This document shows, piece by piece, positions 701 through 37,306 of a stretch of 38,221 bases of DNA (positions within the stretch are counted from its first letter, which is position 1; every line of letters begins with the position of its first letter). Source of the stretch: a virus; IMG/VR virus record IMGVR_UViG_3300017917_003536, positions 1 to 38,221 of that record. One strand, 5' to 3'. Both the position numbers and the translations under genes were made by a program. The notes beneath the pieces are model-generated. The model searched no databases. It saw nothing but the letters and a program-made list of their open reading frames with translations, and was not told the origin of the DNA.

Positions 701-3694
701 TTATACACACTCACAGAATGATTCAGTATAGTTATAAATTTGAGTTCCACTTGGACTTGATGTAACACCTTGTGTTACTAAGCAAGCTCCTGGAGCATCA
801 GAACTTACACCCTCACCATAATATCCAGTTCCGCTTATATAGTAATATGCAGAGTTACATATATCAAAGAATTGAACAAATTCTGGGCAACCTGTTAAAC
901 CTGTAGATGTTAAAGCTAGAGATCCTGCTAAGTTTGTACCAGCTAAAGAATCAATAACATAAGTTACTCCGCCAGAAGTTACTCTATCTCCTACTTCAAA
1001 TGTATTTTTAGCATATACAATAGAATATCCAGTTGAACTATCTAGACAGTTATTTAATACATATACTTCAGCGCAAGTATCAGAATTAGCTTCAATTAAA
1101 TGATCTCTAACTCCATTATAATTAATCGCGCAAGGATTAGTTTGAATTTGTGGTTGATATAAATCTACACCTGAACAATAGTTATCTCCATTTTGTTGCC
1201 AGTTTTGAGTTGTATCTGGGGAGCTATTGCTTGGGTTTGTTGCGTAACTGTTTCCATTAGAATAGAATTGATTTCCAGTAAAGCAATCATTTGTATTTTC
1301 ATAAACAGTGTATGAATTAACACCTCCTCCAGAAACATTACACACATATAATGTGCCAACTGCAGATGAGTAATTAGCATCATAGTTACAAGGAGCAGTT
1401 GAACCTAAATAGTAATTTCTAGTTTGGTTATATGTTGCACTACAAGGATTGTTATCAATTTGAGGTTGATATGCTACACAGTTATCAGAACAGAAAGCAG
1501 ATCCATTATTTACCCAGTTAGCAGTAGTTGATTGACCACAACAACCTCCACAATAAGTAGAATTAGCTTCAACTAATCCACCTTGTCTTTCTTGGTTATA
1601 AGTAGCAGAACAAGGATTAAGATCTTTTTCTACATAGTACTTATTACAAGTACCATAGCAACTGTATGTACCAAATACAACAGTCCAGTCCGCAGATAGA
1701 CTACCTGATGGTGGAGCACTTGTACCTAAATTATATGTACCTTGTCCAGCGAAGTAGTTGTTATATGTGGATGAATTAGGATTTGTATCTAAATAAACAA
1801 CATATAGAGTATTACCATAACATGTTTGATATGCTTGATATGTGTATGATGGTGCTCTATTAACACTTGTTGAAGGAGTTATACTAGGTGTCACAGTAGG
1901 TGTTACACTAGGTGTTCTAGTAGGTGATGGTGATGGATCAAAACAAGATACCAAATTACCTGAACTTACACCCTTATTGCCTGCTGAATCAGAAATAGCT
2001 ACAAAGTATGTACCATTTGATAAAGAATTATAAGTGTAGTCAATTCCTGCTCCTATATCATTTCTTGTTCCAGCGTTATCAAGTCTATTAAGAGCATCAG
2101 CTGAAGAAATATTACTTATAGCAATATAAACATAACTGCTATTACCACCACTAAAATTATGCGCATAAATAATACCTGTATTTGCTCCGCCAGCACAGCC
2201 AGCTGATATACTAAGTGTGATTGGTATTGTAGATGTGCTAGGTGTTATACTAATAGTAGGTGTGATACTTGGTGTTGTTGTTATACTTGGAGTCACACTT
2301 ATTGTAGGTGTTACACTAATAGTAGGAGTTATTGTTGGAGTTACACTAATTGTAGGTGTTACACTTATAGTTGAAGTAACAGTTGGAGTTACACTAATAG
2401 TTGGAGTCACACTTATTGTAGATGTAATACTAGGTGTAACACTAATAGTTGGAGTCACACTAATTGTAGGTGTAATGCTAGGTGTAACACTTATTGTAGG
2501 TGTCTCTGATATAGTAGGTGTTACGCTAACTGTAGGTGTTATACTTGGAGTCATACTAATAGTTGGTGTTATACTAATAGTTGGAGTAATACTAGGTGTT
2601 TCACTAATTGTAGGAGTTACAGATATAGTTGGTGTAGCAGTAATTGTAGGAGTAATACTAGGAGTTGATGTGGCAGTAGGTGTGACACTAATTGATGGTG
2701 TCTCACTTATAGTAGGAGTAATACTAATAGTAGGTGTTATAGTAATTGTAGGAGTAATACTAGGAGTTACACTAGTACTAATTGTAGGAGTGATACTTGG
2801 AGTTGCACTAAGACTAGTACTAGGAGTTACACTAACACTTGTTGATGGTGTTACACTATTTGAAGGTGTCTCACTAGGAGTGGCACTTATTGAAATAGTT
2901 GGAGTTACACTTACTGTAGGTGTTATACTTGGTGTCACACTATTTGAAGGTGTTGCTGTTGGAGTAACACTCACACTTGGAGTATTACTTGGAGTAGCAG
3001 CTGGAGAAACAGACATGTCTACTTCTTCACGTATAACTCCTAAATCAATAACTCCAAATAAACTTGGAAGATATGATTCTTCTTCAACATAATCTTCAAA
3101 TCTAGTATATTGAGTTGGGTTTGTTAAAAATAAAGATAATCCACTTATAATTTTTTCTCCTTCATGAAGTGAACGAATATTAGTATCTTTAATACCACTA
3201 TCTACTTTTACATTGTTTTGATAAACATCTTTATATGGACCTGTTAACTTCCATAATACCTCAGTAGTTTTATACGCTTTACGAGCATTAGGATTATTTA
3301 ATAAATTATCATAAGTAGTTTTACTTATTTCTATTATATGAGGAGTTGTTGATGCTTTTAGTTGAGCTATATAACGAGTATAATAACCATTATTATAATC
3401 GTCATCTGTTGGAACAGTATATTCATTTTTATATAATGGTGTATCTAAATTATTTTTATAGGTTTTTGTGAAACCATAATTTATTCTATTATTTTTTATA
3501 ATGTTATTAATATCTAAATTAATAATATTATCTTTTAATAAAACAGATGTTTCTGTATGTTCCTGTCCTGACCAATACTTTCCAGTACTATCTTTATGAT
3601 AATACCCTGAGTATGGAAGATTAGATGATACAACCGTAAATCTAGACGATTGATCAAATCCTGTTTCTGTTATGGCTGATTTAGGAATATACAT
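701..3694 (-). CDS. Adhesin-like tail protein with Pro/Thr/Ser-rich stalk and Cys-containing modules
   Basis: This 997-residue protein is probably a tail-tip or fibre-type host-recognition protein. Residues 1 to ~227 form a folded-looking domain of unknown family. Residues ~228-493 are a low-complexity stalk of repeated SVTPTIS/SITPTI units. A small Ig-like segment follows (~494-585, containing GIIYAHNFSGG), then a second short PT-rich linker (~585-612). The C-terminal ~385 residues hold at least four related modules marked by NPCSATYNQ, NPCSATYNQ, NPCAINYNG and NPNSSTYNN, with many paired Cys. The start ATG overlaps the stop of the upstream hub-like gene by one base (TAATG), so translation is probably coupled. 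Its position last in the baseplate run supports an exposed, receptor-facing role. The exact function is inference. Confidence 0.6.
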   Translation of the reverse strand: MYIPKSAITETGFDQSSRFTVVSSNLPYSGYYHKDSTGKYWSGQEHTETSVLLKDNIINLDINNIIKNNRINYGFTKTYKNNLDTPLYKNEYTVPTDDDYNNGYYTRYIAQLKASTTPHIIEISKTTYDNLLNNPNARKAYKTTEVLWKLTGPYKDVYQNNVKVDSGIKDTNIRSLHEGEKIISGLSLFLTNPTQYTRFEDYVEEESYLPSLFGVIDLGVIREEVDMSVSPAATPSNTPSVSVTPTATPSNSVTPSITPTVSVTPTISISATPSETPSNSVTPSTSVSVTPSTSLSATPSITPTISTSVTPSITPTITITPTISITPTISETPSISVTPTATSTPSITPTITATPTISVTPTISETPSITPTISITPTISMTPSITPTVSVTPTISETPTISVTPSITPTISVTPTISVTPSITSTISVTPTISVTPTVTSTISVTPTISVTPTITPTISVTPTISVTPSITTTPSITPTISITPSTSTIPITLSISAGCAGGANTGIIYAHNFSGGNSSYVYIAISNISSADALNRLDNAGTRNDIGAGIDYTYNSLSNGTYFVAISDSAGNKGVSSGNLVSCFDPSPSPTRTPSVTPTVTPSITPSTSVNRAPSYTYQAYQTCYGNTLYVVYLDTNPNSSTYNNYFAGQGTYNLGTSAPPSGSLSADWTVVFGTYSCYGTCNKYYVEKDLNPCSATYNQERQGGLVEANSTYCGGCCGQSTTANWVNNGSAFCSDNCVAYQPQIDNNPCSATYNQTRNYYLGSTAPCNYDANYSSAVGTLYVCNVSGGGVNSYTVYENTNDCFTGNQFYSNGNSYATNPSNSSPDTTQNWQQNGDNYCSGVDLYQPQIQTNPCAINYNGVRDHLIEANSDTCAEVYVLNNCLDSSTGYSIVYAKNTFEVGDRVTSGGVTYVIDSLAGTNLAGSLALTSTGLTGCPEFVQFFDICNSAYYYISGTGYYGEGVSSDAPGACLVTQGVTSSPSGTQIYNYTESFCECV
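2210..3010. repeat. Degenerate tandem repeat encoding the Pro/Thr/Ser stalk
   Basis: About 800 bases are built from short degenerate units encoding T-P-[ST]-I-[ST] or S-V-T-P-T-I-S. On the plus strand they read as variations of gtaggtgttacactaata. Unit boundaries of 12 to 18 bases drift, and many synonymous changes separate the copies. It lies entirely inside the adhesin-like gene. The repeat creates a long antisense open frame on the plus strand that I do not regard as a gene. Confidence 0.9.
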
Positions 3695-6600
3695 TATTTC
3701 ACTCGTTCTAGGTTATATTTTTGAAATGAAAATCCCACTGGAATAGCTAAGCCTGATGTTATTCCAAGCTGTGCTTGATTTGCTCTTAAAAAATCAGCAA
3801 ATTTATTAAACGCGTCATCAAAAGCTGTTGATTTTAATTTTGTGTAATTAGCTTTATATTCTATTTTACCTGTACCTGCTCGACCTGGTTGGATATAATC
3901 ACTATATACTGTATAAGGATGAACAGCTATTTTTCTAATATCACCAACTGTTCCGTTTTTATATTGGTTTTGATCAGCAGTTGATAGATAAGGCTCATCA
4001 GCTGAAGTGTATACAGACTCAACAACAAATGGTGCTTCATCATTTGTATTTGTAGTAACAAATGTGAATGGGCTAACTTGAAAATTATACCCACTAGGAC
4101 TTATTCTACTTAACCAAAACTTACTCCATGCATCTGATATAACAGCTGGGTTTGATTTTGTACTAGCTTCAAATGCTTTATTATAATCAGCTCCTCCTAT
4201 CAATAGATTTTTAAAATTAGCAACATTAAAAGTTATTGTACCTCCAGCTGTAATAAAAGCATTATAATCAGCTGGGAAGTAGGGATCAGAAGCATTTATT
4301 GGATTTTTTTGTTGAACAGCAAACCAATTTCGTAAATACTCATCTATTTTATCTACTGTAACTATTGTTGAAAAGCCTCTACGAACATAGTTGTATGGAT
4401 CATTAACTAAAGTTAAATCAGCCATTTGGTCTGCTTTATATTTAGCATGATAATATTTAGTCCAAGAAGCTGATGGGAGTTTTATAGCTGGAGGGACCGT
4501 GGTAGAGGTCCCTATCATTTTTGTCCAGTTTGGATCATCTACTACACTTCCAAAATATATAGCGTAACTAAGATCACTTACAGCTTTTTCATTGCCTCTT
4601 ATATCTAAAAGAGCTTGATTTCCTTTAAATTCAGCATTATCTCTATCAAGTAAAAAATACACAAACATTTGATGAACCATAAAATCAGCTAAGGCACTTA
4701 ATAAAATTCCAACAGCACTTGATGATGTTTTAAGACTAGCGATTATTCCTTTTAATTTAGTTCTATCAACTGGATTTGAATATTTAGCGGCTATACCTTC
4801 ATTTTCTAGTAAGCATATTTGAGTTTTAATTACTGTGGTCCAATCATTATTCTGTAAAGCATGAGATATACCAGTAATAACAAACCCAAGATTTTTATTA
4901 TAATAATCTTTAGGTAAAATAGATTTATCAATAGTAAAAATTTGTCCTACTACTAATCCACCAATACCATCAAGAGTAATTTCTAACTCAAAAGGAATTA
5001 ATGATTTAAAGTCAACATCTTTACCATTTATTTGGTAATGCATTGTTTTTAATAAACTACCAGCATTTATCACATCGGCTTGAGATGGTAATTTAGTTAC
5101 ATGATAATTAGCACTATTGTTTAATGTTCCTAATACATTTCGTTGCAAATAAGTTGCTAAAGCAACAATTTGGTTATATAAAGAAACATAATAAAATTGT
5201 GGACCTGATACTACAGTACCATCTGGAGCGGTGGCTGTAATAGTTTTTGGATCAACTGTATTATATTCTGTAGATAAAACTCTATCTGTTAAACCTTTAT
5301 TAAAATAAGCTTGAGTAGAAGAATAAATATCTCCTAAATTCTTTCCAGGATTAGCAGATGTAGCTCCAATAGCCATCATAGTGGATTGCTCAGAAAATAT
5401 ACGAGAATTAATTTTTACATCTCTGCAAATACTTTTTAATCCTATTAAATCAAATTTAAATTTAGAATCTTTCTTTTCATTTCCAAAATATTTAACATCT
5501 ATAATTTGAACTGTATTTCTATTATTATATAATTTAAAGTCATTGATTCCACCTAAAGCAAAAGAAATATCATCTAATATAGTTTGTAATAAGGTAATAA
5601 CATCAACTCCATTAGGTCCACCTGATAATCCTCTATACCTTTGGATAATATGATTTATTCCTATAAAGATATGATCTATAGCTCCAATACTAGTTCCATT
5701 AATAAGAAAATTAGATCCAGCATCAATTGAAGATTGTGTTGTTATTGGAGATCCACCACTTAATTCAACATGTGAATATATATCAGGAACAAATCCAGTA
5801 CTAAGGTCACATACAACTGTTGCTAAAGGGTTATTAATTAAACATGTTGATGGATCAATACTAACTGAGTCTTCACTGGCTAGGCAAGGGACCTCATCCA
5901 TTAATAAAATAGTAACTACAGGATCTTTAGTATTTTTATCTTTTATAAGAAAAAATTTATTTAATATAGCTAAAAATGCATTCATTGAAATATATTCAAT
6001 ACCTACACCCTCAGTATCACCATCACAAAATTTAAGAAATAATCGAGAAGATAAATCATTAATTTGTTTATTATAAATCTTACCATCACCATTTACAGCT
6101 CTAAAATTAGTTTTAGCTATCTCTCCATTTATTTTATTAAATGTATCTTCTGCTTGTTGTTGTAATTGAACTCTTTGAGCTTGAGTAGCACCAGGTATAT
6201 CTAAAGAACCTGTTAGATTAATACCATCATATGTGAACCCAGAAACAAACTCACCTTCATTAACATGCGCTATCAGATTTAAAAATATTTTTTCAAATAA
6301 GCTATATACAGGTTGGGGTTGAGTAAGACCAGACTGAATTTGAGGATCAGGGTCTGAACCTAAAATTGTAAAAGGATTAGCACTTGCTTTAATACTATCT
6401 ATTGTTTCTCCTCTAGATATTAAAGTTGTAGTACATTGAAAACCACCATTAGGCATTAGTTGCCATGAAAAGTTTTTAACAAAACCTAACATAGCGTCAT
6501 AATTACCTTTAGTACTAGATACAGATTTATCTATTTTATCATATATAACATCTTCTTTAATTGATGTTGAAAATGGATTAAATGTGATAGTATCAAAATT

Positions 6601-7206
6601 TTTAACTTTAATATTACCTGGAGCAGTATTAATTCCTTTGGCTCCTGCCGCGTCATGATCTATATATTGAGACCAACCCCATTCTAAAAATACTGTATAA
6701 CCAGTACGCATAAATAGAAGTTCTAATTCTTCTAATTGATGTTTATCCCACGCGTAGAATTGAATAGTTGCTTCTCTTAAAGAACCATAAGCACTTTTAT
6801 TTATCACATTCGCACTAACAATACCTGGCATAGGTCTTAAACCAAAAGGTCTATCAACTCCTAGTCCACTCTGAATATCGCTTATATTCGCGGCGTTATT
6901 GAAATCTAAATCACTAGCATATATACCATCTTTTTTTCCTACACCTGATCTTAAAGAATATAAGTTATTATTTTTATTATTATATAAAGTACCGCCCTCT
7001 AAGACATATTTTCTAGATAATTGATCGCCTTTATACTTACCTTTAGGGTCATCATAATTAACAAATGATGTCATTCTAACCCAAGAATTCTTTCCACTAG
7101 TGTATCTTAAAAAGTCATCACTGCGAGTATCTGATGATACTATAATTTCTCGAGCTTTAAGTTGGGCAGCTATTTCAGGCTTAAGAGTACTTTTAAATAT
7201 AGACAT
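3694..7206 (-). CDS. Large baseplate hub-like structural protein
   Basis: This 1170-residue protein is most likely a central baseplate or hub component. Residues ~110-180 carry FGLRPMPGI followed by GSLREATIQFYAW and YTVFLEWGWSQY, a pattern I associate with large structural proteins of uncultured contractile-tail phages. Around residues 735-790 there is a segment with LDGIGGLVVGQIFTID, then LGFVITGISHALQNNDW and TTVIKTQ. This resembles the closing beta-rich part of T4 gp27 / P2 gpD-type hub proteins, which typically read GF-[IV]-[IV]-x-G-x-x-H-x-[IL]. No lysozyme-type catalytic motif is obvious. It sits between the LysM wedge protein and the adhesin, as expected for baseplate order. The hub assignment is by resemblance; a wedge protein is the alternative. 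Confidence 0.5.
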   Translation of the reverse strand: MSIFKSTLKPEIAAQLKAREIIVSSDTRSDDFLRYTSGKNSWVRMTSFVNYDDPKGKYKGDQLSRKYVLEGGTLYNNKNNNLYSLRSGVGKKDGIYASDLDFNNAANISDIQSGLGVDRPFGLRPMPGIVSANVINKSAYGSLREATIQFYAWDKHQLEELELLFMRTGYTVFLEWGWSQYIDHDAAGAKGINTAPGNIKVKNFDTITFNPFSTSIKEDVIYDKIDKSVSSTKGNYDAMLGFVKNFSWQLMPNGGFQCTTTLISRGETIDSIKASANPFTILGSDPDPQIQSGLTQPQPVYSLFEKIFLNLIAHVNEGEFVSGFTYDGINLTGSLDIPGATQAQRVQLQQQAEDTFNKINGEIAKTNFRAVNGDGKIYNKQINDLSSRLFLKFCDGDTEGVGIEYISMNAFLAILNKFFLIKDKNTKDPVVTILLMDEVPCLASEDSVSIDPSTCLINNPLATVVCDLSTGFVPDIYSHVELSGGSPITTQSSIDAGSNFLINGTSIGAIDHIFIGINHIIQRYRGLSGGPNGVDVITLLQTILDDISFALGGINDFKLYNNRNTVQIIDVKYFGNEKKDSKFKFDLIGLKSICRDVKINSRIFSEQSTMMAIGATSANPGKNLGDIYSSTQAYFNKGLTDRVLSTEYNTVDPKTITATAPDGTVVSGPQFYYVSLYNQIVALATYLQRNVLGTLNNSANYHVTKLPSQADVINAGSLLKTMHYQINGKDVDFKSLIPFELEITLDGIGGLVVGQIFTIDKSILPKDYYNKNLGFVITGISHALQNNDWTTVIKTQICLLENEGIAAKYSNPVDRTKLKGIIASLKTSSSAVGILLSALADFMVHQMFVYFLLDRDNAEFKGNQALLDIRGNEKAVSDLSYAIYFGSVVDDPNWTKMIGTSTTVPPAIKLPSASWTKYYHAKYKADQMADLTLVNDPYNYVRRGFSTIVTVDKIDEYLRNWFAVQQKNPINASDPYFPADYNAFITAGGTITFNVANFKNLLIGGADYNKAFEASTKSNPAVISDAWSKFWLSRISPSGYNFQVSPFTFVTTNTNDEAPFVVESVYTSADEPYLSTADQNQYKNGTVGDIRKIAVHPYTVYSDYIQPGRAGTGKIEYKANYTKLKSTAFDDAFNKFADFLRANQAQLGITSGLAIPVGFSFQKYNLERVK

Positions 7207-7214
7207 AACACGAT

Positions 7215-7532
7215 TTAGCTATTTAATTGTTCGAAATCACTTAATATTTGAGTAATATCATTTGGTATCCTTAATTGAAAACCAAGAGTTGGATATAATG
7301 AATCATTTGGTAAATCAGGGTTAGCTATAGATAGTATCCACCATAATGTTGAATCACCATAAAATTGGTATGCTAAATTATCTAATCTATCTCCACGTAA
7401 TGTAAGTAAAAAAACATCACTCTCCAAAAAAGGAATATCTGGATATCGAGTTGAGGCACGATACCTGGTTATTTTTGGATATTGCACACTTGGTACAGTT
7501 TGTATTATGGGAGTATTATCATAGCGTTCCAT
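7215..7532 (-). CDS. LysM-domain baseplate wedge protein (T4 gp53-like)
   Basis: This 105-residue protein carries a C-terminal LysM-type fold. The segment GDRLDNLAYQFYGDSTLWW (residues ~48-66) is followed by ILSIANPDLPNDSLYPTLG and then QLRIP. The pattern of GD, LA-x-x-x-YGD, LWW-x-[IL], N and a final [IL]RIP is the usual form of LysM proteins in contractile-tail baseplates, such as T4 gp53 and P2 gpX-like proteins. Such proteins join the tail tube or hub to the wedges rather than bind peptidoglycan. It lies 8 bases upstream of the hub-like gene and after the tube-like baseplate protein. The length is typical of the family. Confidence 0.75.
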   Translation of the reverse strand: MERYDNTPIIQTVPSVQYPKITRYRASTRYPDIPFLESDVFLLTLRGDRLDNLAYQFYGDSTLWWILSIANPDLPNDSLYPTLGFQLRIPNDITQILSDFEQLNS

Positions 7533-7565
7533 GATAATAAATATGACTTTATTTAAGAATTTAGA

Positions 7566-9353
7566 TTAGTCTAAATATTTGTTAGATGCATCTTTTATGA
7601 TTTCACCTTTACTATTTTTTCTTTGACCAGCTTGTGCGGGGTATGCTTTTTTATCAAGGGTAACAAATGGGGTATTAAATACTGATGCTCCGTCTTTATA
7701 TTGAGCTTTTCTTGGTAAGAAAGTATGGATTGGTTTAAATGATAAAGTAGCCTTAATATGTTTAGGTACTTCATATTGATCAACACCTCCAACTTCAGGG
7801 CCGTTATAAGCGATTTCCCAATGAGTATCTAACATTCCTGATAGTTTAATATCAGTAAATACTCCTGGTTGTCTATATAGATAGTCACCTACAGTTAAAT
7901 AACCTATATTACCTCTCATTTTTCCATTTTTTGAATAATCAGGAGTAAATGTAGATAATAGATAATTTAATTTTTTATATATTGGAGCCATTTCTTCTGG
8001 TGTGTGAGCGTATATAGTGAACGCTAGGCTTATATCTCTTGTGAATCCATTATATACATAAAATTCTTCACCACGTCCCATATAACGATATGAATCCCAT
8101 TTAGCATTCATTCCATCTTGAAAATCATCTAAATATGCTCTAAATGCTAAAACATCTGTATTAATAGCACCTCCAGATATAGGATTATCATTATTTAAAA
8201 ATTCAAATCTAAACTTAATTATATCACGACCAAATTTACCATCTATATTCTGGTTTCCTTTTTCTAAAGTCCATGATGGTAGTTCAGGATCATTGTTACT
8301 AGTTAATGAATTATCATAAAATGTTTTACTATCTGTTACAGTGATAACATTAATAGCATCTACATTATATTTAGTTGTTTCTTTAGAGACAAAAAGTACA
8401 TCAGCATCACCAGCAAAACCATCTACATAATCATACTCTTTAGTTGTTCTATTTCCAGAAGATACTCCAATTCTAGATTCAATATCATAACTTGTTGATA
8501 AATTTCCATTTCCGTCTCCTGCGTTTACTCTATTTTTATATAATGGAGAATTATATAATTGATTTGCTAAAGTTGAATTTAAATCAGCTTGTGTAGCAGC
8601 ATTTATTCTAATATTAGAAAATAATCTAAACCCATTTAATTTTAACTCTAAGTTATCTGATAAAGAATTACCAAAAGTTGTTCTTATTTTTGTGGTATTA
8701 ATTTCAGTTCTTCCTAAACCATATACTGAAGCAGCTCCTCCTCCATATTTAAGTAGATTCTGTTGTCCACTAGGATTTGATATTATTGTAGCATAATGAT
8801 CAACTAATCTATTAGCGTTTCCTTCTATTAAGTTAACAGTTTTAGTTCGATCATTATTAAGTGTAGCAATTGCTTCATAGTTATATCCCCCATTTCCTTT
8901 GCTACTTCCATTAAAAAATCCTACTGAACCTCTAGGGATTAAACCATGTCTTGTAAAGTGACCACCTATAGCGTTGATTGGAACTTGAATAAGAGTATTA
9001 AGAGGACTATACCATTTGGTAGAATCTAATATACTGTTAGTACCTGGAAATTCTGATTCTAATTGAGGATTAGCTTGTTGTAATCCTAATTGTTTAACTG
9101 TAAATAAAATACCTTTTGTAGAAAAGAAAAATTTACCAACACGCTCTGTATCTTTAAGTATTGATATACCAGCATTAATGGCTCCTCCTCTAATTAAACC
9201 ATCATCAAAATCTCCAGTATTGTATCTAAGACCAGGAGTGAATGGTTTGGATGTGTAAGTGACATTACCTGGATTACTAAACTTACCGTTAGTTTCAGTA
9301 TTATAGTATTGAGCTAGGTTAGACCAATTTTTATCTAGAGTTGAAAACGGCAT
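7566..9353 (-). CDS. Tube-like baseplate structural protein
   Basis: This 595-residue protein has no recognisable enzyme motif. Its C-terminal half (~370-570) runs FRAYLDDFQDGMNAKWDSYR, YMGRGEEFYVYNGFTRDI, APIYKKLNYLLSTFTPDY, then GYLTVGDYL and ATLSFKPIHTFLP. That succession resembles phage tube-fold proteins, in which a beta domain with RYMGR and GF-x-R is followed by a KLN-L helix and a TVGDY loop. It could be a tube initiator or cap comparable in role to T4 gp48/gp54, but that is inferred from gene position between the tape measure and the LysM wedge protein. The N-terminal half includes a polar, Asn-rich stretch. Its start lies 12 bases downstream of the preceding gene's stop. Confidence 0.5.
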   Translation of the reverse strand: MPFSTLDKNWSNLAQYYNTETNGKFSNPGNVTYTSKPFTPGLRYNTGDFDDGLIRGGAINAGISILKDTERVGKFFFSTKGILFTVKQLGLQQANPQLESEFPGTNSILDSTKWYSPLNTLIQVPINAIGGHFTRHGLIPRGSVGFFNGSSKGNGGYNYEAIATLNNDRTKTVNLIEGNANRLVDHYATIISNPSGQQNLLKYGGGAASVYGLGRTEINTTKIRTTFGNSLSDNLELKLNGFRLFSNIRINAATQADLNSTLANQLYNSPLYKNRVNAGDGNGNLSTSYDIESRIGVSSGNRTTKEYDYVDGFAGDADVLFVSKETTKYNVDAINVITVTDSKTFYDNSLTSNNDPELPSWTLEKGNQNIDGKFGRDIIKFRFEFLNNDNPISGGAINTDVLAFRAYLDDFQDGMNAKWDSYRYMGRGEEFYVYNGFTRDISLAFTIYAHTPEEMAPIYKKLNYLLSTFTPDYSKNGKMRGNIGYLTVGDYLYRQPGVFTDIKLSGMLDTHWEIAYNGPEVGGVDQYEVPKHIKATLSFKPIHTFLPRKAQYKDGASVFNTPFVTLDKKAYPAQAGQRKNSKGEIIKDASNKYLD

Positions 9354-22346: not shown

Positions 22347-22454
22347 CTAGTGTTTATAAATGAATGGATCATTTTTCTTTAATTGCTCAATTCTTTTTTT
22401 CATTTTACGCTTATGTTTCCATTTATCAATCCAGCGTTTAATCAATTTTATCAT
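22347..22454 (-). CDS. 35-residue basic microgene
   Basis: This small frame encodes MIKLIKRWIDKWKHKRKMKK, then RIEQLKKNDPFIYKH and a TAG stop. The ATG overlaps the last codons of the carbamoyltransferase gene, and the stop lies 2 bases before the APS kinase start, so it fills the gap exactly. It is very basic and helical with a DPFIY ending. I recall similar tiny proteins (a basic helix ending in DPFIYK) from T4-type phages, which argues that it is real. The function is unknown. Confidence 0.6.
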   Translation of the reverse strand: MIKLIKRWIDKWKHKRKMKKRIEQLKKNDPFIYKH

Positions 22455-24018
22455 TTTTGTAATACATTTTGTTGTTAATAACTAAAATATCCATATCTGT
22501 CTCTGTAAATGTTTTAAAAGCATCTTCAGGAGTTAACACCATTGTTTTATCTTTTATGTTAAATGATGTATTTAGCAATATAGGAAAACCACTTTGGGTT
22601 TCAAAGCTTTTTAGTAATTTAAATATTTTACTTTTTTTATCATGAACTGTTTGTATACGAGCTGTTCCATCAACATGTGTTACAGCGGGTAATTGTGATC
22701 TATATTCTTCCTTAACTTTAACTACCTGATTCATATAAGGAACATAGTCATTAGACTCAAAATAAACGTTTTGAGCGGATTTAAGTACCATAGGTGCAAA
22801 TGGTCTAAACATCTCGCGTTTTTTGATTAAAGCGTTTATACGGTCTTGCATTCCAGGCAATGTTGGGTTAGCTAATATACTTCTATGTCCTAGTGCTCTA
22901 GCTCCAAATTCAATTTTACCCTCATACCATCCTACTACTTTTCCATTATTTAATTCTTTAGCAATGGTATTTATGTCTAAAGGTTTAGAGTTACAAAATT
23001 CTAAATCATACTCAGGACCTAAAAAGGGATCATCAGGTATTCTTACTTTTAAATAATTTAAACAAGCACCTATACATGAACCAGCATCAGATGGAGAAGT
23101 TGGAATCCATATGTTTTTATATGGTGTGTTTTCTTTTATTTTTCCATTAGCTGTACCATTATAAGCGCATCCACCACTTAAACATAAATTTTCGCCTGGG
23201 TGTTCATTTAAGAAATGAAATAATGCTTTTTCATATATCCACTGAAGTGAAGCCGCTATGTCTTTATGTCGCTGAGTTATAGGTTCATTAGGTAATCTAT
23301 TATCTCCAAGTAATTTAATTAGTTTATGGTTAAACATAACTTTATTACTTTCATTCCAAGTAAAATATTTCATATTAACTTGTAATCCTTTTCTATAACA
23401 TAATAGTTTTCTAAATTTACCTTTATATTCAGATGGGTCTCCATAAGATGCTAAACCCATTACTTTATATTCTCCTTCATTTGGTTTAAATCCTAAATAA
23501 GCAGTAATTGCTGAGTATAGTAATCCTAATGAATGAGGATAAGTGATTGTTTTTTTGGTTATAAAATTTCCATCTTTCACTTCAACTATTTTTAATGTTT
23601 CTTCCTCACCAACTCCATCTATACTAACTAAAGTAGCGTCATTATAAGGTGATGAGTAATAAGAATACATTAAATGTGAGTCATGATGTGTTGAGTAGAA
23701 AATATTTTTACTTATTTTCTTTAATTCAAACCATAATTTGATATTAGTGTATAAAATACGAGGAATTGATCTCCAATTATGTTTAAATGCTCTTAGTAAT
23801 TTAAGAGATGGTTTTTCATAATAACAAACTAAATCAAATTTATCAGTATAATGTTGTTTAATATATTCTATAGTGTTAATAGGAAAACTAGAGTCATGTT
23901 TTACTCCTGTGAATTTCTCTTCTTCACAAGCAAATACTAATTTACCATCTTGAAATAAACAAGCTGATGAGTCATGATAGTAAGCTGATATGCCTAATAT
24001 ATTATTTTTTGCCGCCAT
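22438..24018 (-). CDS. NodU/CmcH-type carbamoyltransferase
   Basis: This 526-residue protein should transfer a carbamoyl group from carbamoyl phosphate to a hydroxyl, probably on a sugar. The N-terminal Kae1-like domain has ISAYYHDSSACLFQDGKLVF (HDSSA at 15-19) and EEEKFTGVKHDSSFP. The middle has LCLSGGCAYNGTANGKI, and the C-terminal domain has WYEGKIEFGARALGHRSILA (GARALGHRSI) and FRPFAPMVL, then LLNTSFNIK. Every family landmark is present and the length is right (500-600). It overlaps the dehydrogenase start by 17 bases and the 35-codon microgene. Relatives decorate Nod factors, antibiotics and surface polysaccharides. A glycan acceptor is likely here. Confidence 0.93.
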   Translation of the reverse strand: MAAKNNILGISAYYHDSSACLFQDGKLVFACEEEKFTGVKHDSSFPINTIEYIKQHYTDKFDLVCYYEKPSLKLLRAFKHNWRSIPRILYTNIKLWFELKKISKNIFYSTHHDSHLMYSYYSSPYNDATLVSIDGVGEEETLKIVEVKDGNFITKKTITYPHSLGLLYSAITAYLGFKPNEGEYKVMGLASYGDPSEYKGKFRKLLCYRKGLQVNMKYFTWNESNKVMFNHKLIKLLGDNRLPNEPITQRHKDIAASLQWIYEKALFHFLNEHPGENLCLSGGCAYNGTANGKIKENTPYKNIWIPTSPSDAGSCIGACLNYLKVRIPDDPFLGPEYDLEFCNSKPLDINTIAKELNNGKVVGWYEGKIEFGARALGHRSILANPTLPGMQDRINALIKKREMFRPFAPMVLKSAQNVYFESNDYVPYMNQVVKVKEEYRSQLPAVTHVDGTARIQTVHDKKSKIFKLLKSFETQSGFPILLNTSFNIKDKTMVLTPEDAFKTFTETDMDILVINNKMYYKNDKID

Positions 24019-25159
24019 AAAATATTGTATCAGGTTTATTTCTTTCTCTCCATGGATCTAATATAATACTACCACTAGGGAAGACAGTGTCATTAAAAAC
24101 GCCTCTATGGCCTAATAAATACACAGCTGCTTTATCAGTATAATCATATTTCAAATTTTCATATCCTAGTTTATTTTCTAAATAATGTCCAATTAATTTT
24201 GAATATGAACCATCAACATATGGTACACCTGGTTTGTAGCTTTCTCCTAGTATTACTATTGGTAAATCATATACATCATGTAATTCTATTAATCGTTTAG
24301 CTATATTACGAGCTTGTTCTTCTCTAGCGGTCATAATAGGTTCAAATAAATCATATCCTAATTTATATTTTTCAGATATATATCTTAAAGCAATATTATC
24401 TCTTGGGTGACATGCGCCTCCATCTCCCATACCTGCTTTCATATAAGAAGGACCCATAATTCTAGTTGTACTTCTTTCTAAGGCTCCTGTTACAACATCA
24501 GTACTCATATTACCATTCTTTTCAGCTACATCCATTATCATATTAACTAATGATAACTTAGCTGAGATGAATGTGTTATAAAATATTTTAATTGCTTCAG
24601 CATCATCCCAAGTACCAATTTCATATCTGGTATTAGGCTTAACAAATGTATTATAAAAATCAATTAATATATTTGCGTCACCTGTCACATGTCCATCTTC
24701 AGTTCCGATAATCACCATTTCAGGATTTACCATATCTTCTTTTACAGTACCCATAGCAATTAAATAAGGATTATAAATAAACCTATAATTTTTTACTAAT
24801 GGAATAAATTCTCTTCTTATAGTACCAGGTAATACAGTTGATATTAATACTACTAATTGGTCTTTAGTTGTATATTGATTAACTTCTTCTAGTATATCTT
24901 TGACAATACTATAGTTAAAATCTTTTGGTTCTAAATGTGATGTTGGTTGACTACCATCATAATCCGGATGATGAGGTGTTGGAACAGCAATGAAAATAAT
25001 TTCACCATGTTTACAAACATCTTCTAGTTGCCATGTCATTTCAAATTTACAGTCAAGAATTGTTCTAGTATCATAGCCTAAAACATCATGACCTGCTTCA
25101 TACATAACTTCAGCGGCGTCTTTACCTAATTTTCCTACTCCAATAAAACCTACTTTCAT
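24002..25159 (-). CDS. UDP-glucose/GDP-mannose dehydrogenase family protein
   Basis: This 385-residue protein is an NAD-dependent dehydrogenase of the family that oxidises nucleotide sugars to uronic acids. The Rossmann motif GFIGVGKLGKDAA is at residues 4-16 and IAVPTPHHPDYDGSQPTSHL follows. STVLPGT (107-113) and IYNPYLIAMG (the NPEF/L-x-x-G region) are recognisable. The catalytic Cys is Cys250 in GDGGACHPRDNIAL, and the C-terminal domain has ILGESYKPGVPYVDGSYS. It is a little shorter than cellular UGDH (~430). Some positions differ from the classic motif (HPRDN instead of FPKDT), so the substrate could differ. It is next to the carbamoyltransferase gene. Confidence 0.88.
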   Translation of the reverse strand: MKVGFIGVGKLGKDAAEVMYEAGHDVLGYDTRTILDCKFEMTWQLEDVCKHGEIIFIAVPTPHHPDYDGSQPTSHLEPKDFNYSIVKDILEEVNQYTTKDQLVVLISTVLPGTIRREFIPLVKNYRFIYNPYLIAMGTVKEDMVNPEMVIIGTEDGHVTGDANILIDFYNTFVKPNTRYEIGTWDDAEAIKIFYNTFISAKLSLVNMIMDVAEKNGNMSTDVVTGALERSTTRIMGPSYMKAGMGDGGACHPRDNIALRYISEKYKLGYDLFEPIMTAREEQARNIAKRLIELHDVYDLPIVILGESYKPGVPYVDGSYSKLIGHYLENKLGYENLKYDYTDKAAVYLLGHRGVFNDTVFPSGSIILDPWRERNKPDTIFYGGKK

Positions 25160-31288: not shown

Positions 31289-32749
31289 TTATATCAACTT
31301 TGGGGTTGGTGTTACTCCTGGAGGTGAAACATATTCTCCTCTTTCGAAATGAGTGATAGCTCCATCTCGCATTTCTACTGATGGTATACTTTGATCTACT
31401 TTGATAGAATCATACCACTCAGCTAATTCAGGAAATGTCATTTTAAAATCTTTACCACGTCTGAAGTCATATTGTACATAAAATGATTTAAAATCATGCC
31501 ATAGTAAACTTTTATCATCTTCAGTGTAGTTATGTCCTTTTTGAACTACTTCAATATAATCAATTAAGCGCTCAATTTGAGCTTTTTCTCCATCATTAAA
31601 TAAAGGATTTTTCTTATTTTTATTATACCATCTTTTAAGTTTAGAATGGAGTGATTTTTTAATTTCATCAGGTAAAGCTAATGGAGACATAAACCCAGGC
31701 CAACGTAGAATATTTAAGTCTACATTTGGTCTATTAGGTCCATATTTTTCCTTTAGTGATAACATATCATCTAAAAACTCATCAATACTAAATAAACAAA
31801 GACTATTAATAGTCATCATTATTGTTACTGATCTGAAATTAGCATTCTCAATAAATTCTACTAGGTTTTTTCTCCAAACATCGTATTTTAATCCATCACG
31901 GATATATTCAGCGTGACCAAACATTGATTCATTACTTGTGTATAAATCAAATTCTTTTACTTTAATATCTTTAGTCATTTGAATAAGCTTCTGTAAAGTA
32001 CCTTCAGCCATTCCTAAATTAGAATTAACAGCTAAAGCTAGATTTTCAGCTGGATGTTGTTTTAGAGTTTCAATAAAATTCCAAAAGTTATGACTCGCAC
32101 TAGGCTCGCCTCCTGTGACTCTTAATTCTTGTAATTCTTTAGATAATTCAGGCCACCATGCTAAAAATGCTTCTACATATGGATTAAAATCATTATGTTT
32201 TCCATACTTCTCAGCCCATGATCCATTATTTTGATACGCTTCAGCTGATACTGTTTTGAATTTTTGGTAAGGTCCAAATTTACTGATTTCTTTACCCCAT
32301 GTTGTACTGTAACCCGCGTTACAATAGCTACAAGCAAAATTACAGGTTCTATCAAAACTGATCTCTACAGTCTTTAAATTAACATCTTCATGAAATGGTG
32401 CTTGAGAAATACGTTTAATATCTTCATCAGAATATATTCTGCTTTTATACACACGATCAGAAATATTATCTCTTCCTATATCTTCAATTTTCCAACAATA
32501 TGAGCATTCTGCTGGGCGTTTGCCTTTCAGCATCATTTTTCTCATTTCTTTTTTATGTTGAGTATTATGAAGAGCTGATGGATTTTTCTTAATTTCTTCT
32601 AAATCTACTGGGTGTGGTAATGGTAAATGGCATGAATTTGTAAAGCCATGTCCTAAATGCAAACTAGCATTTAGCCATTTAGCGGCGCAAAAACTTTTAC
32701 TTACTTTATTGAGATTTCTATCTCTCCATGACCTTAATTCATCTGACAT
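31289..32749 (-). CDS. Radical SAM enzyme with additional Cys cluster
   Basis: This 486-residue protein has the radical SAM signature Cys136-x3-Cys140-x2-Cys143 in FDRTCNFACSYCNAGYSTTW, followed by ELRVTGGEPSASHNFWNF (the GGEP-type SAM-contact motif). N-terminal Cys21, Cys40, Cys82 and Cys85 (FCAAKWLNAS and ECSYCWKIED) look like an auxiliary cluster, placed before rather than after the core as in usual SPASM proteins. Related large radical SAM proteins are common in marine and freshwater T4-type phages, but their reaction is unknown. It lies between a sugar epimerase and GT7-like genes, so a sugar-modifying reaction is plausible. A peptide substrate cannot be ruled out. Confidence 0.85.
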   Translation of the reverse strand: MSDELRSWRDRNLNKVSKSFCAAKWLNASLHLGHGFTNSCHLPLPHPVDLEEIKKNPSALHNTQHKKEMRKMMLKGKRPAECSYCWKIEDIGRDNISDRVYKSRIYSDEDIKRISQAPFHEDVNLKTVEISFDRTCNFACSYCNAGYSTTWGKEISKFGPYQKFKTVSAEAYQNNGSWAEKYGKHNDFNPYVEAFLAWWPELSKELQELRVTGGEPSASHNFWNFIETLKQHPAENLALAVNSNLGMAEGTLQKLIQMTKDIKVKEFDLYTSNESMFGHAEYIRDGLKYDVWRKNLVEFIENANFRSVTIMMTINSLCLFSIDEFLDDMLSLKEKYGPNRPNVDLNILRWPGFMSPLALPDEIKKSLHSKLKRWYNKNKKNPLFNDGEKAQIERLIDYIEVVQKGHNYTEDDKSLLWHDFKSFYVQYDFRRGKDFKMTFPELAEWYDSIKVDQSIPSVEMRDGAITHFERGEYVSPPGVTPTPKLI

Positions 32750-32769: not shown

Positions 32770-32777
32770 ATAAATAT
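32770..32777 (-). promoter_or_regulatory. ATATTTAT element upstream of the radical SAM gene
   Basis: The element is 21 bases upstream of the ATG at 32749 and shares its last base with the stop of the GT7-like gene. This 27-base gap is one of the few breaks in an otherwise overlapping gene run. Confidence 0.4.
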
Positions 32778-34216
32778 TATAACATTACGTTAATTAATTT
32801 AGCTTTAGGGGTTATTTCTTTAATATCCACTAAAGTATATTTTAAGGTATTCATACCTTCATTTTTATAATCGATTTCACCTTGCTGCATCTTCATTATA
32901 AATCGTTCCTCGTTACGTGCAGTTGTTTTGCCTTTTATCCAATTACCTTCATGAAATCCTTCATCAGGATGTTCTAGGCAATCCATTCTTCCTGGTGTTC
33001 TATGAGGTACAATAGTGTTAGGTATTTTTATTTCTTCATCTATTTTTAAACAGTCTAATACTAAACCATTATTATTATTTCCTGTTTGATCTTTTAATAA
33101 TTTATCATGGCTAAAATCATAATCTAAAACTAAACCATCTTGTATAATATTATTAAATGATTCATTAATTTCTTCTTTACTTAAACATCTATCCCACATC
33201 ATTAATTTAGCCATATCTCCTCTAAAATATTTTCCAGGATTATCATCTCCTAAAAATGGAGATGTACCTAAATAATATTCCATTTCATTATAACGTTTTA
33301 AACTACCTTCATATGTTGCTGGAGAGTCAGTTCCTGTACCTGATGAGGCTTGAGACTCAATTCCATTCATATAAATGTGAATTTTTTTCTCATCAGTATC
33401 TGTAGCTATTGTTACCCAACTCCATTGATTTTCAAAACGTTTCATCCATTGGTAATAAGGCTTATTAAATGTATTCCATACCATTGATGTATAAGCTCTA
33501 GAGTTATTATAAGATATACTGTAATCATATCCTGGTCTTCTTAGTATAGGATATTCAACAAATTGCTTATTGTCTGATCCTATTAAATAGATAGACATTT
33601 TATCCTGCTGTTGAAATGCTCTAACTAATATTGATATAGTATGAGATCTATGAGTTAAATCTTTTAAAGTAGGACTTACAGGTATTTTAACCTGAGAGTT
33701 TACGCCATTGAATCTTAAAAAAGTATTAGTTTTATCTTTATAATCTAAATAACTAATATTAGCGTATCCTTCATAAATGCATCTCCAAAATAAATCATCA
33801 TCTTCCATACCCCAATCCCAATATTCATTTGAATAACCATTTGTTTTTTCAACTTGTTCTTTAGAAAATATAACAGCACCACCAAAGTAATCTTCATACT
33901 TCAAATGATAATTATGTTTTGAAATATTAACTGCTATATGTCTTGGATTTTCAGTTGGAAAAGAATAATCACAATTATCATCAACTGGAATCATATCAAT
34001 GTCATGCCAAACTACATAGTCACACCCATCTTCAAAAGCATGTTTAGCAGCTATATTTTTCATAGCTCCTCTATTAAATAATTTATCATCTACTTGATGA
34101 CCAAAATACATACAATATTCTATACCTTTTTCTTCTAGGAACTTTCCTACACGAGGTATAAACTCTTTCAAATGAGCTTCTCTGTTTCTATACGGTACAC
34201 AAACTCCTAATTTCAT
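32777..34216 (-). CDS. GT7-like glycosyltransferase with inserted LamG-like domain
   Basis: This 479-residue protein has a split catalytic domain. Residues 1-~160 match the beta-1,4-galactosyltransferase (GT7) fold: VPYRNREAHLKEF, LFNRGAMKNI, the metal-binding H-Asp72-Ile-Asp74 in VVWHDIDMIP, and NGYSNEYWDWGMEDDDLFWR (EDDD at 138-141). Residues ~166-395 look like a LamG/ConA lectin domain (LRFNGVNSQVKIP, FENQWSWVTIATD, KKIHIYMNG, YYLGTSP, FRGDMAKLMMWDRCLSKEEI). Residues ~400-479 return to GT7 (NEERFIMKMQQGEID, NEGMNTLKYTLVDI), matching the enzyme family's end. So the lectin domain sits within the catalytic domain. It probably transfers a hexose and binds its glycan acceptor. Confidence 0.8.
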   Translation of the reverse strand: MKLGVCVPYRNREAHLKEFIPRVGKFLEEKGIEYCMYFGHQVDDKLFNRGAMKNIAAKHAFEDGCDYVVWHDIDMIPVDDNCDYSFPTENPRHIAVNISKHNYHLKYEDYFGGAVIFSKEQVEKTNGYSNEYWDWGMEDDDLFWRCIYEGYANISYLDYKDKTNTFLRFNGVNSQVKIPVSPTLKDLTHRSHTISILVRAFQQQDKMSIYLIGSDNKQFVEYPILRRPGYDYSISYNNSRAYTSMVWNTFNKPYYQWMKRFENQWSWVTIATDTDEKKIHIYMNGIESQASSGTGTDSPATYEGSLKRYNEMEYYLGTSPFLGDDNPGKYFRGDMAKLMMWDRCLSKEEINESFNNIIQDGLVLDYDFSHDKLLKDQTGNNNNGLVLDCLKIDEEIKIPNTIVPHRTPGRMDCLEHPDEGFHEGNWIKGKTTARNEERFIMKMQQGEIDYKNEGMNTLKYTLVDIKEITPKAKLINVML

Positions 34217-35550
34217 ATTTTAACAACTATATGGGTTTCGTTATCAAATTTATTGTTACTATGTTCTTTATAATGCAAGTTATTTAAACCATCTTCTTTT
34301 GTATTAATATATCCTTTAGACACTTCATTACTAAACTTTAGCTGGTTGTATCTTGTGTTAATATCTTTCCATCCTCCATTCACAAATCCATTGTTATCAT
34401 GAGGTAATAGGCTAAATGTAGATTCTCGTCTAAATGGTACTTCAATAATATTATTGTCTTCTATATTACATGATATTACTTCACAGTTATATATTTTTCC
34501 TTTATTTTTATGTTCACTTAAATCTACCAATTGGTACTCTTTAATAAAACTAGCATCATAATATGTCTTTAAATTAATAGATGAGTCAAAATAAGTTAAT
34601 CCAAAGTATTTGTTCTGAGATATTTCTTTTATTTCCTTATCAGTTAATGCTCTATCATATATAGCTAAATTATATATTAAACCTGTGAATGTTTGTCCTA
34701 AATAAAAATTCTTATCATCATTATTTTTTAATTCACTATATTTAGTTTCTCCAGTAAATTCACCATCTTGATATAATTTTATTTTATTATCACATATAGT
34801 GACACATAAGTTAGTTTTATATGGATTTAATCTTTCAGAGTTAATATATAATATATTTTCTTTAACATCATTAATCACTACTTTATACTTAGAATAAGAG
34901 TCATAAGATATTTTTAAATCAAGTTTAGGTAAAGAAAATATTACAAACTCATCATCAAATGTTTCATGATTTAAAACTAAATCTTGTGGCTTAAATGATA
35001 TAAAAATAGTAGACTCATCTTTAGGTTTATATAAACTCTCTACATAAGCATTATATCCATTAAATTTCAAAGCAGCGTTATGACTACTAACTACTTTAAT
35101 TTCTTTTTTATCTAAAGGAATATTATTCACCTTACATCTAAATAGTAAATCATCATCTTCAAATCCCCATCCCCAATACTCATTAGAATATCCATTTATT
35201 TTTTCAAAATGTTCTATAGGAAATAAAATTACACTACTAAAAAATTCATCAAATGATGCTCTTTGTGTAGCTAGTAATAAAGGAGTATATGAATATGAAT
35301 AATCTACTTCAATAGGAAGCATATCAACATCATGAAATACTACATAATCACATTTAAGTTTTATAGCTTGTTTAAACCCTATATTTAATAGTTTTCCTCT
35401 GTTAAATAACTTAGCATCATCCTGTTCAACAATTATTAATTCAAAATCTATATTTTTTGATTTTAAATAACTACTAATTGATGACTTAAATGATATAAGT
35501 TGATCATATCTATCTCTATAAGGTACTATAATACCTAATTTTTTATCCAT
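34213..35550 (-). CDS. GT7-like glycosyltransferase with inserted LamG-like domain (paralogue)
   Basis: This 445-residue protein has the same layout as the gene after it. GT7 N-part: IVPYRDRYDQLISF, LFNRGKLLNIGF, VVFHDVDMLPI (Asp74-x-Asp76), and NGYSNEYWGWGFEDDDLLFR (EDDD at 131-134). A LamG-like insert covers ~161-370 (LKFNGYNAYVESL, NKIKLYQDGEFTGETKY, KNFYLGQTF, GLIYNLAIYDRALTDKEI). The GT7 C-part starts at ~376 with LPHDNNGFVNGGW and TRYNQLKF, then EDGLNNLHYKE. The insert is diverged from its paralogue while the metal and acceptor motifs are kept. It overlaps both neighbours. Different lectin inserts may give different acceptor choice; this is inference. Confidence 0.8.
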   Translation of the reverse strand: MDKKLGIIVPYRDRYDQLISFKSSISSYLKSKNIDFELIIVEQDDAKLFNRGKLLNIGFKQAIKLKCDYVVFHDVDMLPIEVDYSYSYTPLLLATQRASFDEFFSSVILFPIEHFEKINGYSNEYWGWGFEDDDLLFRCKVNNIPLDKKEIKVVSSHNAALKFNGYNAYVESLYKPKDESTIFISFKPQDLVLNHETFDDEFVIFSLPKLDLKISYDSYSKYKVVINDVKENILYINSERLNPYKTNLCVTICDNKIKLYQDGEFTGETKYSELKNNDDKNFYLGQTFTGLIYNLAIYDRALTDKEIKEISQNKYFGLTYFDSSINLKTYYDASFIKEYQLVDLSEHKNKGKIYNCEVISCNIEDNNIIEVPFRRESTFSLLPHDNNGFVNGGWKDINTRYNQLKFSNEVSKGYINTKEDGLNNLHYKEHSNNKFDNETHIVVKI

Positions 35551-35747: not shown

Positions 35748-36584
35748 TTATATTGATTGTATTATTTTCCATAATTTATACCACTCAGTATAAATGTTAT
35801 ATGTTTCTTGAATCATAAATCTAGAATCTGTTATATCAATTTTAAAGTCATTTTCTTTTATAGCATTATACATTACTCTGTATTCTTCTGAAAATGAATT
35901 AACTGAATTAATGTCAGATACTTCTTTAATTCTTTTTATACAAGTGCTATCCCATTTAAAATGATGAACTTGAACATTGTATATGTCAGTAGGAGCAATT
36001 AACGGGTGATTCCACCCTTGCCATTTCCATGTTGTTTGTCCATCTATTTTAGCATAATGTTGTCCAGGAGTTAATTCTATATATCCTTTAGCTACACAAA
36101 TTTTATTTGGACATGCTCCTGATAATGGATATCTAAAAAATCCAGCTAGAGGAAATTGTTTAAATATATCTTCATTATCATTAAGTACAGGGAAGGTTCC
36201 GTTAGGTCCTATTCTATCTACAAATCCTCCTCTAACTAGTTCCCATCCGTGTGCTTCACATGATTGTACAATACTTTTTAGTGGTTGAGAGTACATATGA
36301 AATTCATCATCATCAGCTATTACCCACCAATCATTTGGATGTTCCATTTTAAACTTATTATATAAGTTTGTAACATGGTTCCAATTAAATTTTTCCATAG
36401 GTCCGCTTCTCTTAACTATAGCGTTTGGAAATTTAGAAGCTATTTTCATTACTTCATCATATGTGCTAAAACCATCCCATTCATATACTACTATCCACAT
36501 CTCATCAACAAGATGAGCATAATGTTTAAGCATATGATATAATGTGTTTGTTCTAGAACCTGTAACCGTTATTAATCGTAACAT
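35748..36584 (-). CDS. GT-A type glycosyltransferase
   Basis: This 278-residue protein starts with LRLITVTGSRTNTLYHMLKH, a beta strand and helix like the nucleotide-sugar binding start of GT2-like enzymes. At residues 86-95, WWVIADDDEFHMY contains a D-D-D-E-F version of the metal-binding DxD (Asp91-93). It continues with a Gly/Arg segment, LVRGGFVDRIGP and PGQHYAKIDGQTTWKWQGWN, which has the feel of families that read 'not known to be a direct witness but a distance', and ends with HHFKWDSTCIKRIKEV. The last H-x-[KR]-W element is common in phage GT-like proteins, often near the acceptor pocket. Donor and acceptor are unknown. Confidence 0.7.
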   Translation of the reverse strand: MLRLITVTGSRTNTLYHMLKHYAHLVDEMWIVVYEWDGFSTYDEVMKIASKFPNAIVKRSGPMEKFNWNHVTNLYNKFKMEHPNDWWVIADDDEFHMYSQPLKSIVQSCEAHGWELVRGGFVDRIGPNGTFPVLNDNEDIFKQFPLAGFFRYPLSGACPNKICVAKGYIELTPGQHYAKIDGQTTWKWQGWNHPLIAPTDIYNVQVHHFKWDSTCIKRIKEVSDINSVNSFSEEYRVMYNAIKENDFKIDITDSRFMIQETYNIYTEWYKLWKIIQSI

Positions 36585-37306
36585 TATTTTTTATTTATTA
36601 TTGTTATCCCTGTAGAGGATGGTTTATTCGGTAATATACTAAAATTAAATAGGTTTACCAAATTCCATTTATCATTTTTTTCTAATTCTTTAATTAAACG
36701 AGAAGGACCATCAAAACGATGATAATCCTTTTTATTATCCTCAGATACAATTAATGATTGTTCATAATTAATATCAGTGTCATGTATTATTATAATACCA
36801 TTTGGTGATAATATTTGAGAATATAACTCAAAATCTTTTTTTACACCTTTATATGAATGATCTCCATCAATAAACAACACATCTATCTTAATATCTTGTA
36901 AAATAAAAAAGTTGTGGTAAGCATTTTCAGAAGTATCCTTTACAAAACGAGGATAGAAGTGAGTTCTATAAAATGATTTCTCATCTTCTAAATCAGTTGG
37001 TCCTCCTATCCCATTACATGCGTCTACTACATAAGTAGCACCTATATCTCCCCAATTAAACTCATTATTACCATCAAATATACCTTGATCATATAAATCA
37101 CGTCTAGCTTGAGTCATTATTCTAGGAATAAAACCTCCTCCTGAGCCTATACAAACACAGTTTTTAGCTCTCATATGCTGGATAATAGAATATACTATTA
37201 GTCCGTCTCCTAAATGTAAATCAGTAGCTCCATGTGTCCATCTATATGGGACAGGAATATCTTGATTATTAGTTATGTTTTTGCTTATGTAATCTAAATC
37301 AAACAT
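36584..37306 (-). CDS. Class I SAM-dependent methyltransferase (Methyltransf_24-like)
   Basis: This 240-residue protein has a glycine-rich SAM loop, CVCIGSGGGFIPRIMT, at ~50-65. An acidic strand end, TYVVDACNGIGGP, comes at ~91-103. IDVLFIDGDHSYKGVKKDFE at 141-160 and LSPNGIIIIHDTD follow. FIDGDH-x-Y-x-G with I-x-H-D is the signature of Methyltransf_24-type enzymes, which often methylate sugars or small molecules. A divalent metal could be bound by Asp147, Asp149 and His150. The ATG overlaps the TGA of the upstream gene within ATGTTTGA. It is probably an O-methyltransferase for the glycan; the substrate is not shown. Confidence 0.82.
   Translation of the reverse strand: MFDLDYISKNITNNQDIPVPYRWTHGATDLHLGDGLIVYSIIQHMRAKNCVCIGSGGGFIPRIMTQARRDLYDQGIFDGNNEFNWGDIGATYVVDACNGIGGPTDLEDEKSFYRTHFYPRFVKDTSENAYHNFFILQDIKIDVLFIDGDHSYKGVKKDFELYSQILSPNGIIIIHDTDINYEQSLIVSEDNKKDYHRFDGPSRLIKELEKNDKWNLVNLFNFSILPNKPSSTGITIINKK

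Follow-up and report, generated by a model that had tools for sequence, protein, structure and literature searches.

The window analysed here is the whole 38,221-nucleotide stretch of IMG/VR virus record IMGVR_UViG_3300017917_003536 (positions 1 to 38,221). It carries two paralogous genes, A and B, which lie adjacent to each other on the minus strand with a 4-base overlap, each encoding a GT7 glycosyltransferase with a LamG domain. The two genes, their parts and three neighbours discussed below are as follows:

32777..34216, minus strand: gene A (P0001, 479 aa), LamG-inserted GT7
33758..34216, minus strand: A, GT7 N-terminal core, residues 1-153 (Pfam GT7N 2-84 and GT7C 92-152; PDB phmmer)
33995..34003, minus strand: A, DxD metal motif D72-I-D74, aligned with DVD of beta-4-GalT1
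33794..33820, minus strand: A, WDWGMEDDD, residues 133-141, aligned with WGWGGEDDD of beta-4-GalT1
33011..33739, minus strand: A, LamG/pentraxin-fold insert, about residues 160-402 (Pfam Laminin_G_3 171-351; structural match to the LamG domain of PAPP-A)
32780..33010, minus strand: A, GT7 C-terminal segment, residues 403-479, with EGMNTLKY (hhalign against uninterrupted bacterial GT7)
32969-32971, minus strand: A, invariant His416 in the GT7 C-terminal segment
34213..35550, minus strand: gene B (P0002, 445 aa), paralogue of A and likewise a LamG-inserted GT7
35113..35550, minus strand: B, GT7 N-terminal core, residues 1-146
35323-35331, minus strand: B, DxD motif
35149-35175, minus strand: B, WGWGFEDDD
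34438..35091, minus strand: B, LamG/pentraxin-fold insert, about residues 154-371 (Pfam Laminin_G_3; structural match to the LamG domain of PAPP-A)
34216..34437, minus strand: B, GT7 C-terminal segment, residues 372-445, with invariant His384 and DGLNNLHY (hhalign)
31289..32749, minus strand: twitch-domain radical SAM protein (NF033640, E 5.1e-90, above cut-off)
35748..36584, minus strand: GT2-like protein (weak PF13704, E 0.23)
36584..37306, minus strand: Methyltransf_24 / CmcI-like methyltransferase (Pfam)

In both proteins Pfam recognises first GT7N, then GT7C and then Laminin_G_3, all above the curated cut-offs (E 2.2e-17, 8.9e-20 and 2.3e-12 for P0001; 6.3e-20, 1.8e-14 and 1.9e-8 for P0002); the NCBIfam search returned no family for either. 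A sequence-only reading of this DNA had proposed that the GT7 core is interrupted after EDDD by a LamG-like domain of about 200 residues and resumes afterwards. The Pfam order and the structure models bear out the interruption, with an insert nearer to 220-250 residues, and the resumption is confirmed by the profile and structural alignments that follow. The competing explanation is a simple C-terminal fusion, in which the segment after LamG belongs to the lectin or to an unrelated fold. It draws on the fact that Pfam alone does not detect the GT7 C-terminal segment of A or B, the signal being too weak, and that a PDB sequence search with this segment alone matches beta-4-GalT at just E 0.1-0.4. 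AlphaFold2 models of A and B, with input alignments of 59 and 66 sequences and of high confidence (pLDDT 93.0 and pTM 0.87 for A; pLDDT 94.6 and pTM 0.90 for B), speak against it. Aligned with bovine GalT1 by VIA-align, the A model matches over residues 1..479 (214 aligned, 1.9 A, Z 28.1) and the B model over residues 1..445 (209 aligned, 2.2 A, Z 26.6), so that both GT7 halves of each model form one beta-4-GalT fold. As the earlier reading had anticipated, the halves pack together and the LamG domain emerges from one loop. Since the ends of each model fall on a single GalT chain and the middle on LamG, the architecture is an insertion rather than a fusion.

Homologues that lack the insert lead to the same structural reading, which thus rests on two independent models together with uninterrupted relatives. 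In bacterial GT7 proteins (L117-L125), about 13 residues separate ED(D)D from RRxGxYxxLxH, and the proteins end in DGLxxLxY, thereby marking the insertion point of A and B. By hhalign, the C-terminal segments of A and B match the C-termini of these proteins with 97% probability each (E 3.4e-11 for A and 2.2e-12 for B), and one His and one Gly in the segment are invariant in 34 of 34 phage and bacterial sequences. Given the structural alignment of both ends to GalT and the hhalign matches, we rejected the fusion, which is now scarcely credible; LamG is almost certainly inserted within an intact GT7 fold in both A and B.

The catalytic motifs are conserved. A PDB phmmer search aligned residues 2-152 of A with beta-4-GalT1 (E 1.3e-30), and the first 150 or so residues of B aligned with beta-1,4-galactosyltransferases in the PDB (E 1.2e-28), in each case with DxD and W-x-WG-x-EDDD in register. 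GT7N and GT7C are recognised in each of the 66 proteins in the B alignment. In 59 relatives of A D72 and D74 are invariant and WDWGMEDDD mostly so; across both families there is little or no variation in DxD, W-x-WG-x-ED and the C-terminal His. A Tyr aligns with Tyr289 of bovine GalT1, the residue that decides between Gal and GalNAc, in 97 of 97 A proteins scored and in 87 of 88 B proteins. In 86 of 97 A-family proteins a Cys stands three residues ahead of the metal His, a site occupied by Met344 in GalT1. Catalysis by A and B, as predicted from these motifs, is well supported, and the two are very probably active glycosyltransferases. They are likely to be cytosolic, metal-dependent, inverting galactosyl-type transferases, and UDP-Gal is the likely donor for A. 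P0002 itself departs from its family: its residues 103-106 read FFSS, where 86 of 88 scored B proteins have YFGG, and the stretch includes the Tyr289-equivalent position, occupied by Phe. As a result, the donor or acceptor specificity of P0002, or its activity, may be altered.

Compared with the uninterrupted proteins, A is longer by about 250 residues and B by about 225. The inserts, of about 220-250 residues, adopt in the predicted models a jelly-roll fold with LamG/pentraxin matches at Z 17-22. Against the LamG domain of PAPP-A, the A insert aligns over 197 residues (model 162-402, Z 21.8) and the B insert over 188 (model 157-366, Z 21.4). Sequence similarity is far fainter: a PDB search with the A insert alone was weak, with C-reactive protein as the best match (E 0.086). 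Laminin_G_3 is nevertheless recognised at E <= 1e-3 in 60 of 66 relatives of B. Within the A insert, which averages 41% identity, a polar and aromatic set (E221 Y222 P223, N237 N238 S239 R240 A241, Y255 W257 K259 and W265) is 88-100% conserved. Such a set in an otherwise divergent domain fits the expectation for a binding site; we infer a putative site of this kind in the A insert and, with it, ligand binding by the LamG domain.

According to the sequence-only reading, the two copies had diverged mainly in the insert. The insert is indeed the least conserved part between P0001 and P0002, at 24% identity; however, the C-terminal segment follows closely at 29%, and the N-terminal core stands at 43%. 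Within families the insert also diverges fastest, with mean identities of 41% against 70% for the N-terminal core among A proteins and 32% against 60% among B proteins. The A and B inserts are nonetheless homologous (hhalign E 1.5e-35) and occupy the same insertion point, so that one insertion before the A/B duplication is most likely. In a tree of the core, insert-bearing A, B and C proteins stand apart from proteobacterial GT7, but the uninterrupted GT7 of Bacteroidota and Planctomycetota are placed with poor support; the case for a single insertion therefore relies on the homologous inserts and not on the tree. We propose that the LamG domain entered once, in the gene ancestral to A and B, between the helix after WxWGxEDDD and the strand with the metal-binding His, and that duplication would then have yielded A and B, with a third copy, C, in some viruses. 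This third insert-bearing paralogue lies upstream of the pair (L101:3781-5238, L095:4262-5746, L082:4025-5587 and similar loci) and has EDLD or similar instead of EDDD, possibly with altered catalysis.

The architecture constitutes a large family in well over 100 uncultured viruses. Direct searches gave 28 and 80 viral loci, and a core profile search of IMG/VR gave at least 555 matching stretches. Gene order is B-A in most loci, with the third paralogue upstream in others, and the insert is kept in every full-length A, B and C member examined. All 28 large virus records hold two or three insert-bearing GT7 paralogues each; the strong GT7C matches in them are all ORFs of 435-521 aa, with no short uninterrupted GT7 among them, and four weaker matches fall in ORFs of 366-820 aa. 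Outside this set, a tblastn search (E 1e-3) of 50,697 deposited phage records found no relative of A or B, and the radical SAM and GT2-like neighbours were likewise without a match in deposited phage genomes. Among the matches listed in BFVD, no viral protein spans both domains (best query TM 0.39). The search for this insertion in other phages and bacteria, a check that the earlier reading had proposed, found it in uncultured viruses and in six MAG contigs (L111-L116) of the genome collection, but not in the deposited phages. Long GT7C matches in bacterial genomes were considered as further insert carriers; those retrieved were dismissed, being either unrecognised by the phage GT7 profile or of GT2 type.

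Four of the MAG contigs look like virus contigs binned into MAGs: L111, L114 and L115 carry B-A pairs, in L111 and L115 with viral module genes around them, and L116 has radical SAM and carbamoyltransferase neighbours. A different setting is seen on a 66-kb contig of a Fibrobacterota MAG, where a LamG-inserted GT7 (L113:4941-6428) is surrounded by genes for an SNF2-domain protein, an LRR-kinase, a GT2 and an ABC transporter. This context looks cellular, and the gene is possibly ancestral or possibly acquired from a phage. The architecture occurs in 2 of 168 Fibrobacterota genomes (that of L113 and the MAG holding L112) and, given the cellular look of L113, is phage-dominated rather than phage-exclusive. 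A homologue of the tail sheath encoded in the window is present in 17 of 40 carrier records, which reach 310 kb; T4-type baseplate matches and weak tail-tube ones are also found in the window, and the nearest deposited tail sheath is that of Flavobacterium phage immuto (50% identity). The carrier of A and B would be a large myovirus. Beside the tail and baseplate genes, window positions 701-9353 encode proteins of 997, 1170 and 595 aa without a Pfam match.

A conserved five-gene module and a wide spread in uncultured viruses are what our analysis adds to the earlier reading. Neighbourhoods were counted over 136 distinct loci with A, mostly viral and including a few MAG contigs. The commonest order of the module is methyltransferase, GT2-like, B, A and twitch radical SAM. 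Homologues of B occur in 129 of the 136 loci, those of the GT2-like protein in 124 (mostly as the gene immediately upstream of B) and those of the methyltransferase in 117; the radical SAM protein is found in 131 and lies directly downstream of A in 104. No other gene accompanies the GT7 pair as constantly as that of this last protein (NF033640), which is often present in duplicate. The other glycan genes of the window, encoding an epimerase, a UDP-glucose dehydrogenase and a carbamoyltransferase, show for the most part no conservation alongside the module in the flanks examined. At window positions 22438-25159 the Nol-like carbamoyltransferase adjoins the UDP-glucose dehydrogenase, in a wider glycan region beside the tail genes.

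Taken together, A and B would be soluble GT7-fold glycosyltransferases, metal-dependent, inverting and of galactosyl type, with the LamG domain packed beside the active site, where it may bind the growing glycan or a glycosylated acceptor and present it for catalysis. The two enzymes would add consecutive sugars of a phage-made glycan, which the methyltransferase, GT2-like and radical-SAM enzymes of the module may help to build or decorate, and which would probably be destined for the virion or the host surface. We consider it somewhat probable that these elements hold together, namely soluble paired transferases, one ancestral insertion, acceptor presentation by LamG and a glycan made by the module; the acceptor-binding role of the insert, taken by itself, is about evenly balanced. 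The earlier proposal that the insert holds the acceptor glycan and that the copies differ in acceptor specificity is plausible. More tentatively, A and B could represent a phage-dominated GalT branch in which the lectin insert is part of the acceptor site, and build a defined, methylated, radical-SAM-modified glycan through the five-gene module, which is absent from the deposited phage records searched.

The LamG/pentraxin fold also serves protein contacts and oligomerisation. It is conceivable, if rather unlikely, that the insert serves protein-protein contact or oligomerisation without touching the acceptor, either by linking A with B or by anchoring the enzymes to a virion protein or to another enzyme encoded in the module. 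The best structural matches of the insert include pentraxins, which form oligomers, and PAPP-A, and A and B are nearly always found side by side in the same order; however, a loop between two active-site elements would be an odd spot for a dimerisation tag, and the conserved Trp, Tyr, Asn and Arg of the A insert resemble sugar sites, while being compatible with a protein interface too. It is less probable still that LamG acts away from the active site, binding a product or a nearby sugar and so letting the enzyme lengthen chains already decorated. Such lectin-guided follow-up glycosylation is established for GALNTs (PMC4432651), and two tandem paralogues would fit sequential steps, but the position of the insert inside the catalytic domain and the high pTM point to tight packing instead of a flexible linker; for a protein of two domains, a pTM this high speaks for a definite arrangement of the two. 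That the insertion is functionally neutral baggage kept by descent might be read from its rapid divergence in both families, yet it is retained, with fully conserved positions, in every full-length A, B and C protein examined, and useless DNA is easily lost from phage genomes; we regard this as very improbable.

Textbook accounts of GT7 glycosyltransferases come chiefly from animals, and as a rule it is a separate partner that shifts their acceptor specificity (alpha-lactalbumin for GalT1). In A and B a lectin-type domain is instead built into the catalytic domain, and the genes are duplicated in every large record examined. Should the insert form an acceptor site, A and B would be soluble lectin-gated galactosyltransferases useful for glycan synthesis, and the five-gene module offers a handle on which sugars large aquatic phages make, and why.

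Animal beta-4-GalTs are Golgi type II membrane proteins, whereas the phage A and B proteins start directly with the catalytic core. With beta-1,4-galactosyltransferases 1 and 7 (PDB 1tvy, 2ae7, 4irq, 3lw6) they have the fold in common over about 205-214 residues (rmsd about 1.9-2.2 A, in a discontinuous match over both model ends), as well as DxD, W-x-WG-x-EDDD, the C-terminal His, the D/E-G-L/M/I-N segment and, except in P0002, the Tyr289 equivalent; unlike A and B, those enzymes lack an insertion. The uninterrupted bacterial GT7s (Chitinophagaceae, Planctomycetota, Rhodoplanes and others) share the core and the C-terminal RRxGxYxxLxH...DGLxxLxY with A and B, but about 13 residues stand in place of the 220-250 of the phage proteins. 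PAPP-A, pentraxins and BACOVA_03559 (4dqa) have the LamG/pentraxin fold of the inserts (Z 17-22) at 10-20% sequence identity, though not within such an enzyme core. A literature search gave no description of GT7 in phages or of LamG in glycosyltransferases, and in the literature and structure libraries searched no GT7 was found whose catalytic domain encloses a lectin domain, though a negative result in these collections is no proof. A functional parallel is found in B4GALNT3 and B4GALNT4, beta-1,4 glycosyltransferases in which a putative glycan-binding beta-sheet module near the catalytic domain is needed for activity; deletion of this module, PA14 rather than LamG, strongly lowers the activity of B4GALNT3 (PMC11254600). 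Lectin domains also steer or regulate catalysis in GALNTs and GnT-IVa (PMC4432651, PMC9296478), which are not GT7 enzymes: GalNAc-transferases combine GT27 with a ricin lectin, and GnT-IVa combines GT54 with a C-terminal lectin. By analogy, A and B may work like lectin-guided enzymes of the GalNAc-transferase type. The lectin domains of GalNAc-transferases and GnT-IVa are terminal and on linkers. Lectin modules that control glycosyltransferases are thus already known, and in the cases examined they are terminal or adjacent, whereas the LamG domain of A and B lies inside the catalytic domain.
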